48,093 nt of DNA from a virus, in the IMG/VR virus record IMGVR_UViG_3300031603_000009, positions 1-48,093 of that record, one strand, 5' to 3'. Each line of letters opens with the position of its first letter. Within the stretch, counting starts at the first letter, position 1. Of this stretch, positions 9,237 through 47,729 are shown piece by piece. The position numbers were made by a program, and so were the translations under genes. A model generated the notes under the pieces. It was given only the letters and a program-made list of their open reading frames with translations. It did not search any database and had not been told where the DNA came from.

Positions 9237-12200
9237 TGGCATGTGTTTATAAGTTTAAAGGCAAAACCTACGATAAGGATGATTTCACAAGAGTTTTGCT
9301 TAATATGTCACCGTCAGAAGCATCTAAGTTTATGCCAGACGTTAGCTCTATTCCGGAGGCTCCATTCACCAAGTCCACCCCAGCATGGTCAATGTTAGCC
9401 ATGAAGCGAATTATACGCTACGCCTCAGAAAACGGGTTTGACAAGGTGGCTTGGACTTCTGGTCAGCAACAATTCGACCGATACCCAGACGGAACAGCGG
9501 CAGACACAGAGAAGCGCCTCGAAGGCATGCAATCATTCTATGATAAAATGCTCCCGTCAAACGTCAACAAGTTCATCAAGAAGTTTGGTGGTAGGGTTGA
9601 GCCTATAGAAATTGACTCAAACAAACAATTATCATTTGAAATAACCCCCGACCTACGCAGGTCAGCGATGGGAAAGGGGATGCCTTTGTTTGCAAAAGCA
9701 CCAAAAAAACCAAAGCCCAAAACATCAGAAGCATACGACAAACTAATCAAAACCCTACGCAACGCAGCATCATCAATAGTAGAGAAGCAGAAAGCCCTTG
9801 AGTTTTACGCCAAAACCCTACCTGAACCAGTCAGAATTAAGGCAATGATGCACTTTAAACGCATTGCCGATTCAAAACGTATACCAACACAAGAAAAGAA
9901 ACTTGATGCAGCCATGGACCGCTTGGCAATCGAGATGAACAAGTATAACGGAAAGCTACACGTTACGGCTATTGAGAAAATGGTCAAGCCCCTTAAAAAA
10001 CAAAACAGTGTAGCCAAGGGTAGCAGAGGCGCAGATGTTGAGGCATTTCTAGCTAAAGGGAAAGAAATCTTAGACATGAAGGGCGATAAGAAAAAAGGAA
10101 TAACCGCAGACGAACAATTATTGGAGTATGTTGATAAGATAACATCACAAGACAATCCAGACGCAGTTGATGAGGCGGCTATTTTAATGTTCGCTGGTTT
10201 AAGAAACAAATCTACATCCGAGAAGAAACAGATAAGGGTGCAACTGTTGGCTATGATTAGTGAGGGAAGGACAAGCTGGAAAAAAATAAAAGAAGATTGG
10301 AAGCTGTATATTGATCCAATTCGGGTCACATTACTTGCTGAAATATCTGGGGAAGCTGACTTCCAAATTGACACAGGTGTAAGCAAAAGAGCAAGGGACG
10401 AAAAAGCGAAGAAGTACCTAAACTCTCAGAGGAACAGGATGGATAAATATAGCAACTCCATTCAGTCTTTTGTCTCCTTGCTCGACAAGATAACCAAGAA
10501 ATCTGGTTCTAAGTCATTCGCCGGAGCAACTACAGAGCACTTGTATGATTTGGTTTATGATGCACAAAGAGCACAAGACAAGATGCAGGACGATTTGCTG
10601 ACCCAAGCAGAAGACCAGATGAAGAAGATTTTCAAGACTAAAAAGATATACAAAGTATCAGCGCGTAATGCCAAAGTAATCAAAGCTAATAAAACAGGTG
10701 TTAAGTTAAGTGATGGTACCCCACTGGCATTGTCACAAAGTGAGGCAGGAGACCTGTGGTTGTCTTGGCAAGACACTACCTTGACCGAGCGATTGATGGA
10801 AATAGGGAAGATCGACTCAACGACCATGGATCAAGTAGAAGCCTTTATGACTCCGCGAGTTAAGCAGTGGGCGAAATGGCAACTTGACAATTTTTATTCC
10901 GAAAACTGGGAAAGAGTTAATCCTATATTCTCTAAGCATAATGGTGTGAATCTAGGCCACAACCCCAAGTATCACCCAATTGAATCAAGGCATCCTGGCG
11001 GCTCTGAATCGAAAGAGGTAGAGTTGAGCAAACCACCAAAGTCGCACGTTTCAATGATCAAGGGGTCGATGAAGTCAAGAATCCCTAACAAAAGAGAAAT
11101 AATGATCAGGAACATGGACGAGGTATTGCTTAACCACATTTCTGAAACTGCGCACTTTGTAGCATGGGCAGAACCAGTAAAAGAACTCAGGAGTTTATTT
11201 GGCAACGAAAAGGTTATCGAGGCAATAAAAATACACGTTCCTGGCGATAATGCACTAAAGGTTGTTAACGGCTTTATTGATGACTTTGCAAGTCTGCACA
11301 GTGAACAGCGTGGAGATATGCCCATCCTGAACATGATACGCAGGAACTTCACATTATCTGCTATTGCTATGAATCCGCTAGTATACATCAAACAGTTGAC
11401 TTCCATCCCTGCATTTATCCCAAGCATACCAGCAGGCGAATATGCAAAAGGCCAAGCTAAGTTCTGGCTCAATCCTTGGACTGCCGCAAGAACTATAATG
11501 AACACCGATTATATGAAGTTCAGGTACTTAAACGGTCATTCAAGGGACATGAGGCAGGCACTTAACAAGTCGCAGCTAGAACTTGGAAACAAAATAAAAT
11601 GGCAAGACAGGTCGATGTTTCTGACAAAACTTGGTGATGGAATGGCGATTGTTATAGGGGGTTATCCAGTTTATAATTACCATTACAAAAAAGCAATAAA
11701 GGATGGAAAGTCAATAGAGGATGCCAAGGTATACGCTGATAGAAAGTTTGGTCAGGTTAGCGATTTAATGCAGCAAGCTAGTGCCAAATCAGCGCAGTCA
11801 GAATATGAGCGCGGCAATACTTTCCAGAAATTGACTACGCAATTTATGCAATCTCCGATGATGTATCTCAGAGTTGTTCAGGCGGCAAAAAGAAACTGGA
11901 AGCATGGCAAGGCTGACTCTATCAATAGACTGTTTGTTGCTGGTGTGTTATTACCCGCACTTTTTTCAGCAATTGGCAATGCTCTGTTGCTAGGAAGTGG
12001 TGATGATGATAAAATAGAGGAAGGTCTTAAATCTGTTCTTCTTGACACTGCCACTGGATTATTTAATGGGTATCCCTTAATCAGGGACTTTGTTGAGATG
12101 ATTAAGAATAATATCACACAGAAGCCATACGGTAGAGAAATGGAGATAACTCCGTTTGTTTCTAACTTTAGTACACTCGGTAAGGCTTTTAAGGAAGGTT

Positions 12201-13422: not shown

Positions 13423-13734
13423 ATGCCGATCACACCGGACGAAAGTAACAAAGTGTTCTATCTTGTTGGTTTGAAAATTGCTGGAGTTTTTCTATCTTTC
13501 GTCGGTGGCATTGTGACAGCAACATGGGTTGTCGCTGGCAAGGTAAAAGGTATGGAAGACAGGCTCGGGAAGGTCGAAGCCACCCAGAACAGATGTCAAA
13601 TTGAAACGCTCGGAGAAATCAAGGACGGAATCAAAGAACTCAACTTAAAAATAGACTCAATCCCCGATCAACTAGACAAAAAACTAGGACGAACACATGA
13701 TCGCATTGATGATTTATTTAAAAACAAAACTTGA
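13423..13734 (+). CDS. Holin-like membrane protein with coiled-coil tail
   Basis: 103 residues, after a ribosome site AAAGGG. One hydrophobic segment at about residues 13-36 (VGLKIAGVFLSFVGGIVTATW) is followed by a long amphipathic coiled coil (KGMEDRLGKVEATQ, EIKDGIKELNLKIDSIPDQL) and a basic end. This layout and its place first in the lysis cassette suit a one-segment holin, a haemolysin XhlA-like protein or an inner-membrane spanin. Holin is my preferred inference. Confidence 0.55.
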   Translation: MPITPDESNKVFYLVGLKIAGVFLSFVGGIVTATWVVAGKVKGMEDRLGKVEATQNRCQIETLGEIKDGIKELNLKIDSIPDQLDKKLGRTHDRIDDLFKNKT

Positions 13735-13749
13735 CGTACAAGGTGCAGC

Positions 13750-13950
13750 ATGTTCGAGCTATCTGTTGATTTTGATAAGTGCCAGGGCTGTATGAAATGC
13801 GAAGTTTTGTTGCCGAGTTTTAGAAACATCCATGGTGGCAGGTTGCGGATCAGCGTCCGGAGGCTTGAGGAGGAAGAAATCAGAGTAGCTGCCTACAGTG
13901 TTCTGGCTGGTTGTCCCAATGGTGCGATTAAACTCAAGGAGTTGTTGTGA
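13750..13950 (+). CDS. Single-cluster [4Fe-4S] ferredoxin
   Basis: 66 residues; AAGGTG precedes ATG 13750. The cysteines are C11, C14, C17 and C55, the last followed by Pro, in the arrangement C-x2-C-x2-C...C-P: KCQGCMKC near the start, GCPNGAI near the end. This is the complete ligand set of small one-cluster bacterial and archaeal ferredoxins. It would carry single electrons at low potential in the host cytoplasm. It sits between the holin-like gene and the coiled-coil/endolysin pair and its TGA overlaps the next ATG, so it is expressed with the lysis genes. Phages do carry ferredoxins (cyanophage petF is 2Fe-2S), but this type and place are unusual. The redox partner is unknown. Confidence 0.85.
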   Translation: MFELSVDFDKCQGCMKCEVLLPSFRNIHGGRLRISVRRLEEEEIRVAAYSVLAGCPNGAIKLKELL

Positions 13951-14123
13951 TGAAAAAAATTGAACGAATCAAGCGGCTGATGGAGACACAGCAACAAACT
14001 ATTGACCGGCTGTCTAAAGAGGTAACAAACGATCCATGTCTCGAAAAGGCTCGGAATAGTAGAGATGCATTTAAACAGTGTTTGACTATTTTGGAGAGTG
14101 ACGGTGAACAACTCCATATTTGA
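13950..14123 (+). CDS. 57-residue coiled-coil protein of the lysis cassette
   Basis: ATG at 13950 overlaps the ferredoxin stop (TGATG). The frame runs to TGA 14121-14123 and overlaps the endolysin start. It begins with a basic amphipathic heptad pattern (MKKIERIKRLMETQQQ...IDRLSKEV). It has two cysteines and no signal or membrane segment, so a classical spanin is unlikely. It may be a regulator or partner of its neighbours; no family is recognised. Confidence 0.6.
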   Translation: MKKIERIKRLMETQQQTIDRLSKEVTNDPCLEKARNSRDAFKQCLTILESDGEQLHI

Positions 14124-14649
14124 TATGGCTTTCAATAAAACCATGGCCCACGAGGGAAAAGGAAAGCTCACTAATGATAAGTTTGACCCTGGTGGCATGA
14201 CCTTTTCAGGGATTTCCCGCGTTTACTGGCCGGAATGGGAAGGGTGGAAAGCTCTTGACTGTGGAGATATGGAAAGTGCAGCTAAATTGGTGAATTATTT
14301 TTACCGAGTAAATTTCTGGAACCGTATACAGGGTGACAAACTGGCTGATATTTCCCCAGCGATTGCCTACGAGGTTTTTGACACGGCTGTAAATGTTGGA
14401 GTATCTACAGCCGTAAGATTTTTACAGACCGGTCACAATATAGCTGGTGGCTTAAGATTGAAACTAATTACTGATGGTCAACTCGGACCTAAGACTATCG
14501 AGACACTAAAAAAGTATATGGCTTCACAACCAGGTACCCGTGCACTCAATGAAGAGATCCTTTTGAATTGCTGCAATGGTGAGCAGTATATATTTTATAA
14601 ATCTAATCCGAATCACAAGCGGTACCGTGGATGGTTTCGGAGGGTTTGA
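14104..14649 (+). CDS. Endolysin, GH108 muramidase with PG-binding domain
   Basis: About 181 residues. I favour GTG 14104 because GGAG at 14093-14096 is 7 bases upstream; GTG 14098 is too close and ATG 14125 too far. The N-terminal domain has the GH108 signature: the catalytic Glu in AHEGKG (residue 17), then DPGGMTFSGISR. The C-terminal domain resembles PG_binding_3 (DGQLGPKTIETLKKY), ending with KRYRGW. It would cleave peptidoglycan glycan strands at lysis. There is no signal peptide or SAR segment, so it needs the holin-like protein at 13423 for export. Confidence 0.88.
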   Translation: MNNSIFDMAFNKTMAHEGKGKLTNDKFDPGGMTFSGISRVYWPEWEGWKALDCGDMESAAKLVNYFYRVNFWNRIQGDKLADISPAIAYEVFDTAVNVGVSTAVRFLQTGHNIAGGLRLKLITDGQLGPKTIETLKKYMASQPGTRALNEEILLNCCNGEQYIFYKSNPNHKRYRGWFRRV

Positions 14650-15912: not shown

Positions 15913-16096
15913 ACCATTTAGAAGAGATCCTTCTCAGTGGTATTTTGTCTTGAAAGGCGAGAGGAACCTGGGATACAAGAAGGCGAAGATTGCAGCGCAG
16001 GTTTTAAATACAGAGACGGATCTCTGGATAAACCCAGAGGCAAGCGCAAACGACAGGCGTGAAGCGTGGGGTAAATTTACGGGGAGGGCAAAGTGA
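15896..16096 (+). CDS. Miniature Cro-like helix-turn-helix protein B
   Basis: 66 residues, overlapping the end of the Bro-N gene; its TGA overlaps the GTG of the pentapeptide gene. The core (WYFVLKGERNLGYKKAKIAA, then QVLNTETDLWINPEASANDRREAWGKF) aligns with the HTH proteins at 14948 and 24935, including the G-x-RN turn, the Trp and the R..A..KF tail. Unlike those two it has no promoter of its own and is translated within the operon. It is probably DNA-binding. Confidence 0.6.
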   Translation: MRPQHKPFRRDPSQWYFVLKGERNLGYKKAKIAAQVLNTETDLWINPEASANDRREAWGKFTGRAK

Positions 16097-16992
16097 AAAT
16101 CAAAAACGTATTCGGAAAAGTAATCTACTCAAGCGAGGCGACAAGCCTGGCGGGGTGTGTTGAAAACGCTGTTAAAGATGCTGTCAATCTCAGAAGAGCC
16201 GATCTCAGTGATGCCAATCTCATTGATGTCTATCTCAGAGGTGCCAGTCTCAGTGATGCCAATCTCAGTGGTGCCAGTCTCAGTGGTGCCAGTCTCAGTG
16301 ATGCCAATCTCATTGATGTCGATCTCAGAAGAGCCAATCTCAGTGATGTCGATCTCAGTGGTGCCAATCTCATTGATGTCGATCTCAGAGGTGCCAATCT
16401 CAGAGGTGCCAGTCTCAGTGGTGCCAGTCTCAGAAGAGCCAATCTCAGTGATGTCGATCTCAGTGGTGCCAATCTCATTGATGTCGATCTCAGAGGTGCC
16501 AATCTCAGAGGTGCCAGTCTCAGTGGTGCCAGTCTCAGAGGTGCCAATCTCATTGATGTCGATCTCAGTGATGCCAATCTCATTGATGTCGATCTCAGAA
16601 GAGCCAATCTCAGTGATGTCGATCTCAGTGGTGCCAATCTCATTGATGTCGATCTCAGTGGTGCCAATCTCAGTGGTGCCAGTCTCAGTGGTGCCAGTCT
16701 CAGAGGTGCCAATCTCATTGATGTCGATCTCAGAGGTGCCAATCTCAGAGGTGCCAGTCTCAGTGATGAAATAAAAATAGAAAAACAGCCTATACAGGTA
16801 GACGCAATCAAATATTACATCCTGATTTTTGACAATCACATGAAAATCGGCTGCGAGTTTCACTCGATATCTGAGTGGTTCGGTTTTGATGACCGTAAAA
16901 TATTAGAAATGGACGGCAAGGATGGGCTTAATTGGTGGGTGAGATGGAAGGATTCTTTGATGATGATTTGTGCGGCTGAAGGTAGGGCATGA
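16093..16992 (+). CDS. Pentapeptide-repeat protein with unique C-terminal domain
   Basis: 299 residues, GTG start in a GTGA overlap. Residues 32-224 are about 38 tandem pentapeptides of the A(N/D)LSx type (GANLIDVDLRGANLRGASLS), predicted to form a right-handed quadrilateral beta-helix. That fold mimics DNA in gyrase-protecting proteins such as Qnr and MfpA. The N-terminal 31 residues (NVFGKVIYSSEATSLAGCVE) are typical of phage pentapeptide proteins. The C-terminal 75 residues are unique, with WFGFDDRKI and WWVRWKD. Codons in the repeats are nearly invariant, so the array is a recent expansion. Function is unknown; gyrase interaction is only a hypothesis. Confidence 0.8.
   Translation: MKIKNVFGKVIYSSEATSLAGCVENAVKDAVNLRRADLSDANLIDVYLRGASLSDANLSGASLSGASLSDANLIDVDLRRANLSDVDLSGANLIDVDLRGANLRGASLSGASLRRANLSDVDLSGANLIDVDLRGANLRGASLSGASLRGANLIDVDLSDANLIDVDLRRANLSDVDLSGANLIDVDLSGANLSGASLSGASLRGANLIDVDLRGANLRGASLSDEIKIEKQPIQVDAIKYYILIFDNHMKIGCEFHSISEWFGFDDRKILEMDGKDGLNWWVRWKDSLMMICAAEGRA
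16186..16764 (+). repeat. 15-bp coding repeat array with a 105-bp tandem duplication
   Basis: About 38 units of 15 bp built from a few words (GGTGCCAATCTCA, GATGTCGATCTCA and close relatives). Bases 16327-16431 and 16432-16536 are identical, a perfect 105-bp tandem copy, and much of it recurs from 16597. Several other frames on both strands stay open across the array because the unit lacks stop codons. Confidence 0.9.
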
Positions 16993-17444: not shown

Positions 17445-17505
17445 GGACCTGCTGGATAATGAAGATGATCAAACTGTAAATATTGAGCCAGCTGCAGGTA
17501 TATGA
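17419..17505 (+). CDS. 28-residue acidic peptide, coupled to the radical-SAM-like gene
   Basis: ATG 17419 to TGA 17503-17505, which overlaps the ATG of the next gene (ATGA). The product is short and acidic (SVDLLDNEDDQTVNIEP) and matches no family. The overlap suggests at least a coupling role. Confidence 0.35.
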   Translation: MNTEEQMSVDLLDNEDDQTVNIEPAAGI

Positions 17506-18299
17506 AAGAATACTTGCCATATTTATCTGCATCAATAAACAGAAAGGGCGTTCTTGACATTGATACGGTAAAGGGGTGTAAATTGGGTATGGCAAACTAT
17601 CCTAAAGGTGGATGTTAAGGCCTTTGTTACGCAGCAAAAACAGCAAAGTTTTACGGTTATGATTTTAGTACCAGCATCAGCAGAAAGTTACACAAACCAA
17701 GCAAACAATTAAATCTATTTAACAAGCCAGTGATTTACGGAAAAAGAAACATAAAAACCATTGTTGAAAATCATACCCTTAAGTGGTTCAGAATAGGGAC
17801 AATGGGCGACCCTTGCCATGATTGGGAATTAACAGCAACGGTCTGTGAGTGGTTGTACAAATTCAAAACACCGGTAATTATAACAAAACATTGGATAAAA
17901 TTATCCGATATATTGCTAAATAGACTTTTGTCTTGTGGTGTTGTTATTAACACCTCTATTTCTCCACTAGACACAAATGAAGAAATAACACACAGGTTAA
18001 ACCAATTTAATAGAATAAAAGATTTTGGAATAATATCAGTTTTAAGAATAGTTTCTTGTAAATTTGGACAAACAGAAAACGGGAAAAAATTAAACAAAAT
18101 ACAGAATAAACTTTTAAAAAACAATCCGATTATTGATAATCCATTAAGAATCACAAAGTCTGATTACAGAGTAAAAAATGGTGATATAATAATAGAAAGA
18201 ATAAAAGATATGAACAGTTTGAATTCAATAAGCATGAATAGTAAAAATGCTTACTTAGGTAAATGTATGGATTGTCCGGACCAATGTGGTGTACTTTAA
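17502..18299 (+). pseudogene. Radical-SAM-like protein interrupted by an in-frame TAA
   Basis: One continuous frame of 266 codons apart from TAA at 17616-17618 (codon 39). The stop lies inside the cysteine motif: KGCKLG...YPKGGC-stop-GLCYAAK, like the CxnCxxCYA motif of phage DUF5131/radical-SAM-like proteins. After the stop come FRIGTMGDPCHDWE, VIITKHW, SISPLDTNEEITHRLN and a C-terminal cysteine cluster (GKCMDCPDQCGVL), fitting a second Fe-S site. A GTG at 17730 could give a shorter product without the first motif. It is followed after 15 bases by a methyltransferase fusion, so DNA-base modification is the likely context. Nonsense mutation, readthrough or sequencing error cannot be told apart here. 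Confidence 0.6.
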
Positions 18300-44849: not shown

Positions 44850-47729
44850 ATGGCAGGAAAAACAACGTACTTCGATCCGGTTGCACTTACCGTTCCATAC
44901 AAGGGACTTGCCAAATCGAGCGATATAAACGCGATTAATACGGCTATAGATGACGCTTTTAATCTACTTAATACAGCAGCTGTAATAACTGGCGGCTCTA
45001 TTAACAGCACTACTATTGGTGCGGTTTCTCCTAGTACAATAGCTGCAACAACGCTGGCAGTTTCAGGGGCGGCAACGGTACCCACCGCATCAACCGACAC
45101 CAATACAACAATCATTGCTTCAACTCAATTTGTGCTTAACCAAGCTAGTGATGTCTCGCCAGTAATGGATGGAAGCGTTGCGCCAGGAGCATCAGAACGA
45201 TATTCCAGGAACGATCACATACATCCAAGCAATACATCCAAGTTAGATGTTTCAACAGCTTCATCAACATACGCACCGCTTGCAAGCCCAACGTTAACCG
45301 GAGATCCTAAGGCTCCGACTGTAGTGAAAACAGACGATGACACCAGCATTGCAACAACAGCTCATGTAAAGCTGGTTGCAGCCGACTACGCACCGCTTGC
45401 AAGCCCAACGTTAACTGGAGTGCCCGCGTCAACCACGGCAGTTGCCGGAACTAACACAACGCAGATAGCAACAACCGCTTTTGTACATACAGAGGTAGCT
45501 AATGTAATCGACGCTGCACCAGCCGCCCTTAATACCCTGAGCGAGTTAGCAGCTTCTTTGGGTGATGATGCAAATTATGCGGCTACAGTAACCACGGCGC
45601 TGTCCCTCAAGTCACCGCTGGCAAGTCCAACATTTACAGGTATTCCGGCGGCACCTACCGCCATTAAGACGACTGACACAACTCAATTAGCAACAACAGC
45701 TCACGTAAAGCTAGTTGCAGCCGACTACGCGCCTCTTGCAAGCCCGTCTATCACTGGAGTACCTACTGCACCTACCGCAACGACAGACACGGACACAACT
45801 CAATTAGCAACGACCGCTTTTGTTTTGGCCCAAGCAAGCGACACTACGCCGGTAATGGACGATACGGCGGCAGTTGTGGGAACGTCTGAAAGGTATACCA
45901 GAGGCGATCATGTCCACCCGATTAACCCAGTAATCCAGACAAACACAGACGCGGCTGTAGCAAGCGCGGCGGCGGCACTGATAAGCGAGAACAACGCGGC
46001 AACAAGTGAAACAAACGCGGCGACATCTTACGATGAGTTTGATGATAGGTACCTAGGAGATAAGGCTTCTAATCCGTCCCTGGATAACGATGGTAACGCC
46101 CTGCTGACCGGAGCGTTGTACTGGAATACTACAGATGACGAGATGAGGGTCTATACGGGATCTGTATGGTACACTGCGTATCTTCCAGCGGAGAGTGCCG
46201 TAGTCGGACCTGCCTCAGCGGTAGACGAGAGGGTCGCGGTATTTGATGGTACCTCAGGTAAGTTGATTAAAGACGGCGGGAAAACTATTGCTGAGATTGA
46301 GGCTGCTGGTGGCCTTAGTGTAGACTTCGTAGCCAGCGGTACGTTACCTAACGGTATGCCTGTTATCCTTAATAGTGATGGGACTGTTGAGGTTGTTGGC
46401 GAGGTTGTAGTTCCGGGTGGTTCTACGATAACTGCCGGAACTCCTACAGTCTTTGAATCTGCAACATCCTACTACACCTCGGTAGCCATGCTAACATCAA
46501 CTAAGGCTATTGTGACTTATAGAGATGTAGGTAACTCTGGCTATGGAACTTCTTGTATACTAGACGTATCCGGCTCTACGATAACTGCTGGCACACCTAC
46601 AGTATTTGAGTCAGCAACATCCGGCTTCACCTCGGTAGCTATGCTTACATCAACTAAAGCTATAGTAACTTATTCGGATGAAGGTAACTCCGGCTATGGA
46701 ACTTCGTGTATTTTAGATGTATCAGGTTCTACGATCACTGCCGGAACACCTACAGTCTTTGAATCTGCAACATCCTACTACACCTCGGTAGCCATGCTAA
46801 CATCAACTAAGGCTATTGTGACTTATACGGATGCCGGTAACTCTGGCTATGGAACTTCTTGCATTCTGGATGTATCAGGTTCTACGATTACTGCTGGAAC
46901 ACCTACAGTCTTTGAATCTGCAACATCCTACTACACCTTGGTAGCCATGCTAACATCAACTAAGGCTATTGTGACTTATAGAGATGTAGGTAATTTCAGT
47001 TATGGAACTTCTTGCATTCTGGATGTATCAGGTTCTACGATAACTACTGGAACACCTACAGTCTTTGAATCTGCAACATCAACCTACATCTCAGTAGCTA
47101 TGTTGACATCAACTAAAGCTATTGTTACTTATAGAGATGCCGGTAACTCCGATTATGGAACTTCTTGCATTCTGGATGTATCAGGTTCTACGATCACTGC
47201 TGGAACACCTACAGTCTTTGAGTCTGCAAACTCCGACTACACCTCGGTAGCCATGCTAACATCAACTAAGGCTATTGTGACTTATAGAGATGTAGGCAAT
47301 TTCAGTTATGGAACTTCTTGCATTCTGGATGTATCAGGTTCTACGATAACTACTGGAACACCTGTAGTTATTGATTCTGCAGATTCAACCTACATCTCAG
47401 TAGCTATGTTGACATCAACTAAAGCTATTGTTACTTATAGAGATGCCGGTAACTCCGATTATGGAACTTCCTGTATTTTAGATAACGAATCAATAGAAAC
47501 CAACCTAACAACCTCAAATTTCATCGGCATTACAGACGCTGCAATAACGGACACTGAATCAGGTAGCGTGACAGTTAGAGGCGGGATACCCACTAATCTG
47601 ACAGGGCTAACTATAGCCTCTGATTATTACATCCAAGGTGATGGCACACTAGCCACAAGCGCAGGTGATCCGTCCGTCGTAGCGGGCAAAGCAATTTCTA
47701 CAACCTCATTAATTTTAAAAGGGATCTAA
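44850..47729 (+). CDS. Tail fibre with seven-blade repeat domain
   Basis: 959 residues, GAGG site. N-terminal about 120 residues attach to the tail. Residues about 135-310 contain four fibre-shaft repeats (YAPLASPTLTGVP....TTQIATTAFV). Residues 330-520 are a mixed stalk with NAATSETNAATSYDEF and TDDEMRVYTGSVWYTAYLPA. Residues 524-880 are seven contiguous 51-residue repeats that fit a seven-bladed beta-propeller, probably the receptor-binding part. Residues 881-959 (FIGITDAAITDTESGSVTVR, YYIQGDGTLATSAGDPSVVA) are a tip domain shared by many fibres. It determines host range. Confidence 0.85.
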   Translation: MAGKTTYFDPVALTVPYKGLAKSSDINAINTAIDDAFNLLNTAAVITGGSINSTTIGAVSPSTIAATTLAVSGAATVPTASTDTNTTIIASTQFVLNQASDVSPVMDGSVAPGASERYSRNDHIHPSNTSKLDVSTASSTYAPLASPTLTGDPKAPTVVKTDDDTSIATTAHVKLVAADYAPLASPTLTGVPASTTAVAGTNTTQIATTAFVHTEVANVIDAAPAALNTLSELAASLGDDANYAATVTTALSLKSPLASPTFTGIPAAPTAIKTTDTTQLATTAHVKLVAADYAPLASPSITGVPTAPTATTDTDTTQLATTAFVLAQASDTTPVMDDTAAVVGTSERYTRGDHVHPINPVIQTNTDAAVASAAAALISENNAATSETNAATSYDEFDDRYLGDKASNPSLDNDGNALLTGALYWNTTDDEMRVYTGSVWYTAYLPAESAVVGPASAVDERVAVFDGTSGKLIKDGGKTIAEIEAAGGLSVDFVASGTLPNGMPVILNSDGTVEVVGEVVVPGGSTITAGTPTVFESATSYYTSVAMLTSTKAIVTYRDVGNSGYGTSCILDVSGSTITAGTPTVFESATSGFTSVAMLTSTKAIVTYSDEGNSGYGTSCILDVSGSTITAGTPTVFESATSYYTSVAMLTSTKAIVTYTDAGNSGYGTSCILDVSGSTITAGTPTVFESATSYYTLVAMLTSTKAIVTYRDVGNFSYGTSCILDVSGSTITTGTPTVFESATSTYISVAMLTSTKAIVTYRDAGNSDYGTSCILDVSGSTITAGTPTVFESANSDYTSVAMLTSTKAIVTYRDVGNFSYGTSCILDVSGSTITTGTPVVIDSADSTYISVAMLTSTKAIVTYRDAGNSDYGTSCILDNESIETNLTTSNFIGITDAAITDTESGSVTVRGGIPTNLTGLTIASDYYIQGDGTLATSAGDPSVVAGKAISTTSLILKGI
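46419..47489 (+). repeat. Seven tandem 153-bp repeats in the tail fibre
   Basis: Units start at 46419, 46572, 46725, 46878, 47031, 47184 and 47337, each 51 codons without indels. Each begins GSTIT(A/T)GTP and ends YGTSCILD. Amino-acid differences cluster at unit residues 15-21 and 35-42; the rest is nearly fixed. Long DNA stretches are identical between non-adjacent units (5 and 7, 4 and 6), which points to recombination or gene conversion between units. Confidence 0.92.

Follow-up and report, generated by a model that had tools for sequence, protein, structure and literature searches.

A small one-cluster ferredoxin is encoded in the lysis cassettes of several uncultured, otherwise unrelated phages that carry four different types of endolysin. 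It has the ferredoxin fold and the four cluster ligands, it is under purifying selection, and the lysis-linked members of its family are not acidic. The tie of the family to lysis is well supported by the gene orders compared below. Our tentative reading, to which we give somewhat less than an even chance, is that this phage-specific family is an accessory of the lysis module and that the state of the cluster may time lysis.

The ferredoxin gene and its neighbours in the window

The window, by which we mean the whole stretch of DNA that was analysed, comprises 48,093 bases and is a virus record from IMG/VR. An ORF on its plus strand (13750-13950), starting with ATG behind a Shine-Dalgarno-like AAGGTG (13740-13745, plus strand), encodes a protein of 66 amino acids. 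This protein matched the Pfam domain PF13370 (Fer4_13) over residues 6-61, with the domain fully aligned (E 2.6e-5), and its score of 25.3 bits was above the curated cut-off of 24.5 bits. The cysteines C11, C14, C17 and C55, the last followed by P56, make up a C-x2-C-x2-C ... C-P ligand set. A PDB sequence search returned the ferredoxin of P. furiosus (E 9e-6). The AlphaFold2 model, with the family alignment as input, reached a pLDDT of 94.4 and a pTM of 0.77, and its top Foldseek matches were the one-cluster ferredoxins of P. furiosus (2z8q, 1siz), R. palustris and M. tuberculosis (E 1.2e-4 and TM 0.67 for 2z8q). The first-pass annotation had read the ORF as a 66-residue ferredoxin with four cysteines. 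This proved correct: both sequence and model confirm a one-cluster ferredoxin, for which binding of a [4Fe-4S] cluster is predicted. The only PHROG match, to the 208-position profile of the 'ferredoxin' phrog_16249, covered residues 4-21 and was rejected as not significant (E 0.35).

Upstream, with a gap of 15 bp to the ferredoxin gene, lies a gene for a 103-amino-acid protein (13423-13734, plus strand) with an N-terminal transmembrane segment (residues 19-37) followed by a coiled coil, which gave weak PHROG matches only. The positive-inside rule favours a cytoplasmic position of the coiled coil. This gene had been called holin-like; its product is best described as a putative holin, antiholin or spanin. 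The start of the next gene (13947-14123, plus strand) overlaps the stop codon of the ferredoxin gene. It encodes a coiled-coil protein of 57 amino acids from the ATG at 13950, in a TGATG overlap, or of 58 amino acids from the GTG at 13947. The endolysin gene (14098-14649, plus strand) follows. Its product, with a C-terminal PG_binding_3-like part, matched PF05838 (E 4.4e-18) and the endolysin profile phrog_315 (E 2.6e-27), in agreement with the GH108 endolysin that had been annotated near the ferredoxin. Further downstream (16093-16992) a pentapeptide-like repeat protein was noted; its long repeats are of low complexity, and spurious ORFs overlap it on both strands.

A ferredoxin family in the lysis cassettes of different phages

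Single-sequence protein scans of viral contigs and annotated phages with the window ferredoxin gave no close relative. The window endolysin has relatives with 50-62% identity in three contigs (L002, L003 and L004), where small genes resembling the coiled-coil gene of the window likewise precede the endolysin. Through these relatives a second ferredoxin was reached (L002/G001), 32% identical to that of the window. In both ferredoxins the spacing is an unusual LP-x-F, with one residue fewer than in the CP-x-x-F normally seen. A search with the alignment of the two yielded G001 as the only match. The family was then defined by a search of viral contigs with a DNA pattern for the LP-x-F signature, which is blind to gene context; a variant pattern added L199. 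It consists of 18 viral loci, G001 counted, after four stray pattern matches (L189, L192, L196 and L198) had been left out. Because the pattern enforced C11, C14, C17, P22, F24 and G30 as well as a codon compatible with L21, the invariance of C11, C14, C17, P22, F24 and G30 is imposed and carries no weight as evidence. C55, the fourth cysteine, was free in the search and was kept in 17/17 aligned members, with K or L in place of the following proline in a few. Loss of cysteines in homologues, which the first-pass annotation had named as a refuting result, was thus absent. Some relatives score just below the Fer4_13 cut-off, and the type represented by L178 gave no match to this domain.

Pairwise dN/dS values of the ferredoxin, within three groups, were about 0.014-0.12. 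These low values show that the protein is functional and under purifying selection, and together with the conservation of the homologous frame in 18 other viral loci they place the window ferredoxin beyond chance. Among 84,980 bacterial and archaeal genomes no stand-alone ferredoxin ORF with the family signature was found (29 pattern matches inspected). The signature, C-x2-C-x2-C-x3-LP-x-F-x3-[YH]-x-G, can be used to find ferredoxin lysis cassettes in other data.

The ferredoxin gene lies next to endolysin or holin genes in eight of the nine genomic backgrounds, namely the window, the G097, G094, G090, G095 and G099 groups, L179 and L195. In the window the order is transmembrane/coiled-coil gene, ferredoxin, 57-residue coiled-coil gene and GH108 endolysin, and in L199/G099 a gene for 62 amino acids stands between ferredoxin and GH108. 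Elsewhere the transmembrane/coiled-coil gene and the ferredoxin are followed directly by an endolysin of another type: Hydrolase_2/SleB in L180/G100, a GH24 lysozyme in L179, or the transglycosylase-like phrog_3108 in L184/G097 and L197/G098. The ferredoxin comes last in L195 (transmembrane/coiled-coil gene, phrog_3108, ferredoxin) and in L178 and its close relatives, where a gene for 244 amino acids is found between the transmembrane/coiled-coil gene and phrog_3108. Two further arrangements open with a receiver-domain (REC) gene followed by the transmembrane/coiled-coil gene. These continue with an HNH nuclease, GH108 and ferredoxin in L191, L194 and L181 (the same order in G094) and with ferredoxin, DUF1353 and GH108 in L186/G095. 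The endolysins thus belong to four types, GH108, GH24, Hydrolase_2/SleB and transglycosylase-like. The profile of the last type, phrog_3108, has no function in PHROGs, and modelling gave no fold for this endolysin (pLDDT 43.6); a role as endolysin is suggested by its relatives in annotated phages, which are named endolysin or lytic murein transglycosylase, and by the residues ES...GPA.G.Y..E.

The recurring transmembrane/coiled-coil proteins are homologous in several cassettes, and by the positive-inside rule their coiled coil is, weakly, cytoplasmic in most cassettes. The receiver-domain-like proteins are encoded two to three genes 5' of the ferredoxin (L186, 1551-2006, minus strand; L191, 1525-1944, plus strand; G094, 46763-47227, minus strand). 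The domain scored over the Pfam threshold in L186 and less well in L191; in G094 it was recognised by sequence similarity. The presence of REC domains in two ferredoxin cassettes may hint at a signal input. HNH/GmrSD_C-type nucleases with a signal-peptide-like N-terminus were seen just 5' of the endolysin in L191 (2419-2997), L002 (1052-1570) and G094 (45727-46305), that of L191 with a Pfam match.

The exception is one related pair, L002/G001 and L193/G096, where the ferredoxin is acidic and its gene follows small HTH genes in the early region. Acidic early-region members are located at 5269-5478 in L002 and at 884-1171 in L193. The absence of a conserved link to lysis genes, which had been put forward as a second refuting result, did not appear, and the association recurred in 8/9 backgrounds.

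The backgrounds differ in how far they are related. In shared-ORF counts the window and each of the records G097, G098p, G100 and L179 had one ORF in common; by tblastn the ORF shared with G097 and G100 was the ferredoxin (57-58%), and G097 also gave a weak match with HNH. In these counts no ORF other than the ferredoxin links the window to G097, G098 and G100, and with its closest ferredoxin-bearing phages it has this gene alone in common. The G097, G094, G090 and G095 groups have 10-29 ORFs in common pairwise and are partly related. Because several backgrounds share some genes, residence in lysis cassettes is not wholly independent among them. The chance that five full-size records agree on the lysis slot was near 1e-6 by a rough hand estimate that ignores shared ancestry (81-123 ORFs per record, four slots at most two genes from the endolysin, the window left out and one non-agreeing background allowed).

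G100 and G098 have ferredoxins with a single difference in 66 residues and nearly identical transmembrane/coiled-coil proteins, whereas their endolysins belong to unrelated families, Hydrolase_2 in G100 and phrog_3108 in G098. Therefore, the ferredoxin does not ride with one particular endolysin. The swapped endolysin ORFs run from 2504 to 2884 in L180 (Hydrolase_2) and from 9566 to 10024 in G098 (phrog_3108). The ferredoxin itself is optional. In L003 and L004 the transmembrane protein, the small coiled-coil gene and GH108 are present and the ferredoxin is missing. The same holds for the cassette of G005, a record with a capsid protein 84% identical to that of the window. Apart from G001, the ferredoxin was absent from 50 related records in a search with PF13370 and from 38 terminase relatives in a search with the family profile; many of these records are fragments. 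Since the sampled relatives of the window do without the gene, it is dispensable.

Comparison with known ferredoxins and rival explanations

The window ferredoxin resembles the Fer4_13 single-cluster ferredoxins (P. furiosus, T. maritima Fd, Desulfovibrio Fd I) in length, four cysteine ligands, CP motif and fold. The phage family differs from them in having LP-x-F for CP-x-x-F, in being neutral to basic instead of acidic, and in being phage-borne and located in lysis cassettes. The net charge of the window protein is +1 (pI 7.7), and all ten lysis-linked ferredoxins compared lie between 0 and +6 (pI 6.7-9.5; 10/10). For the two early-region phage ferredoxins the values are -6 and -9, and for the sampled cellular single-cluster ferredoxins -6 to -16 (L278, read in the wrong frame, excluded). 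The acidic docking surface of soluble electron-carrier ferredoxins is absent in the window ferredoxin and in all 10 lysis-linked members. Because the small proteins of the window have a median net charge near 0, and many small phage proteins are neutral to basic, the contrast is one with ferredoxins and not with phage proteins. The charge, as calculated from the sequences, argues against an ordinary electron carrier. When 20 cellular rows were included in a tree, the phage ferredoxins fell on one side of a branch with support 100/99; this tree is built on few sites, with a small, mostly Bacillota cellular sample and two long phage branches. A search for the window endolysin in 398 Pseudomonadota genomes gave no match, which is uninformative on the host.

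The first-pass annotation had taken known phage ferredoxins to be plant-type 2Fe-2S proteins. This holds for cyanophage petF, also a phage ferredoxin, which is of the plant-type [2Fe-2S] class with an unrelated fold. The statement was incomplete, as a 4Fe-4S ferredoxin is known from Nitrospirota viruses: that of the Lake Baikal viruses (VP_99) has a reported identity of 86% to the host gene and was read as metabolic (PMC7678222). Like the family described here it is virus-borne and of the bacterial 4Fe-4S type; it is host-like, whereas the present family is divergent from the sampled cellular ferredoxins and linked to lysis. That a phage ferredoxin is of the bacterial type is therefore nothing new in itself; what is new, as far as our searches tell, is the lysis-linked family. 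In agreement with the earlier view that no such system has been described, a search of mainly open-access literature gave no relevant paper that connects a ferredoxin with a holin or a lysis cassette.

Several other explanations were weighed. The gene could encode an ordinary electron carrier, an auxiliary metabolic gene in a late-expressed slot that feeds host or phage reductases and has no role in lysis. Single-cluster ferredoxins as a rule carry electrons, the Baikal Nitrospirota viruses have their host-like 4Fe-4S ferredoxin (PMC7678222), and radical-SAM genes occur in some, though not all, ferredoxin phages. We nevertheless consider this explanation rather unlikely, given that the lysis-linked proteins and the sampled carriers are opposite in charge, that in the tree the phage proteins group apart from the 20 cellular rows and are probably not recent host copies, and that the signature found no genuine cellular copy in the 84,980 genomes. 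It also leaves the repeated choice of the lysis slot unexplained. Moreover, Radical_SAM and NRDD searches revealed no ferredoxin-dependent partner common to all ferredoxin phages: PF04055 (Radical_SAM) had no match in the window or in the large ferredoxin phages G095, G098 and G099, and the NRDD search of the ferredoxin phages gave only a sub-threshold match, in G095. The proposal that the ferredoxin supports a radical-SAM-like protein at 17502 was not upheld, as this frame of the window is broken by a TAA at 17616-17618 and has no Radical_SAM match. The frame (17502-18299) starts with ATG at 17502, and the in-frame TAA falls inside the cysteine motif GGC*GLCYA. The 189-amino-acid ORF 3' of the TAA is the remainder of the frame; assembly error, decay and recoding are candidate causes.

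Regions beside lysis genes are known spots for extra genes. The ferredoxin might accordingly be a passenger of module exchange, held in a permissive slot of recombining lysis cassettes for a benefit unrelated to lysis, and the homologous transmembrane/coiled-coil proteins of several cassettes suggest that the cassette may have moved with it. This is unlikely, and less probable than a carrier: the ferredoxin may precede the endolysin, follow it or stand two genes away, it is retained when the endolysin is exchanged, and it is under strong purifying selection.

Two further explanations seem far less probable. IspG and IspH need reduced ferredoxin or flavodoxin, and a charge-altered ferredoxin could act as a decoy that binds or blocks them, cuts the supply of lipid carrier, weakens the wall and speeds lysis. 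There is a precedent in YdfD, a 63-amino-acid lysis protein of the Qin prophage that specifically inhibits the IspG step of the MEP pathway (PMC8835842). YdfD is likewise a tiny lysis protein touching Fe-S biochemistry, but it is not a ferredoxin, and the partner sites of IspG and IspH normally suit acidic carriers, so that we regard a decoy as very improbable. We give even less weight to a WhiB-like action, in which the basic Fe-S protein would bind nucleic acid or RNA polymerase and tune late transcription by its cluster state. WhiB-like Fe-S regulators do exist, also in mycobacteriophages, and the basic surface would suit such a role; the protein is a compact ferredoxin fold only, with no DNA-binding motif.

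A possible role in the timing of lysis

The mechanism that we favour for the lysis accessory is a redox switch at the inner membrane. A redox-responsive accessory is preferred because the transmembrane/coiled-coil partner recurs, its coiled coil is (weakly) predicted to be cytoplasmic, the acidic surface has been lost and two cassettes contain REC domains. The ferredoxin would remain cytoplasmic or be located at the inner membrane face, where its basic surface may dock to anionic lipid or to an acidic partner next to the transmembrane/coiled-coil (holin-layer) protein. The state of the cluster, i.e. reduced, oxidised or lost, could set the moment at which the lysis machinery fires, and the timing of the burst would thereby follow the redox or energy state of the host. 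Late redox control, or a tie between energy state and lysis, as raised in the first-pass annotation, is plausible. Against a lysis accessory stand the one early-region lineage, the genes shared among backgrounds, the dispensability of the ferredoxin and the fact that its charge is common in small phage proteins.

Holin accumulation alone is the usual explanation for the timing of lysis. It is possible, though doubtful, that phages of (probably anaerobic) environmental bacteria possess a redox-gated lysis clock, in which a charge-altered ferredoxin, in some phages with a receiver-domain protein, lets the redox or energy state of the host set lysis. Redox-gated lysis, if true, would be categorically new. 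The Fe-S protein in the cassettes of unrelated phages would then be a direct molecular link from host redox or energy state to burst timing, and the family would show ferredoxins being reshaped by phages away from plain electron transport.
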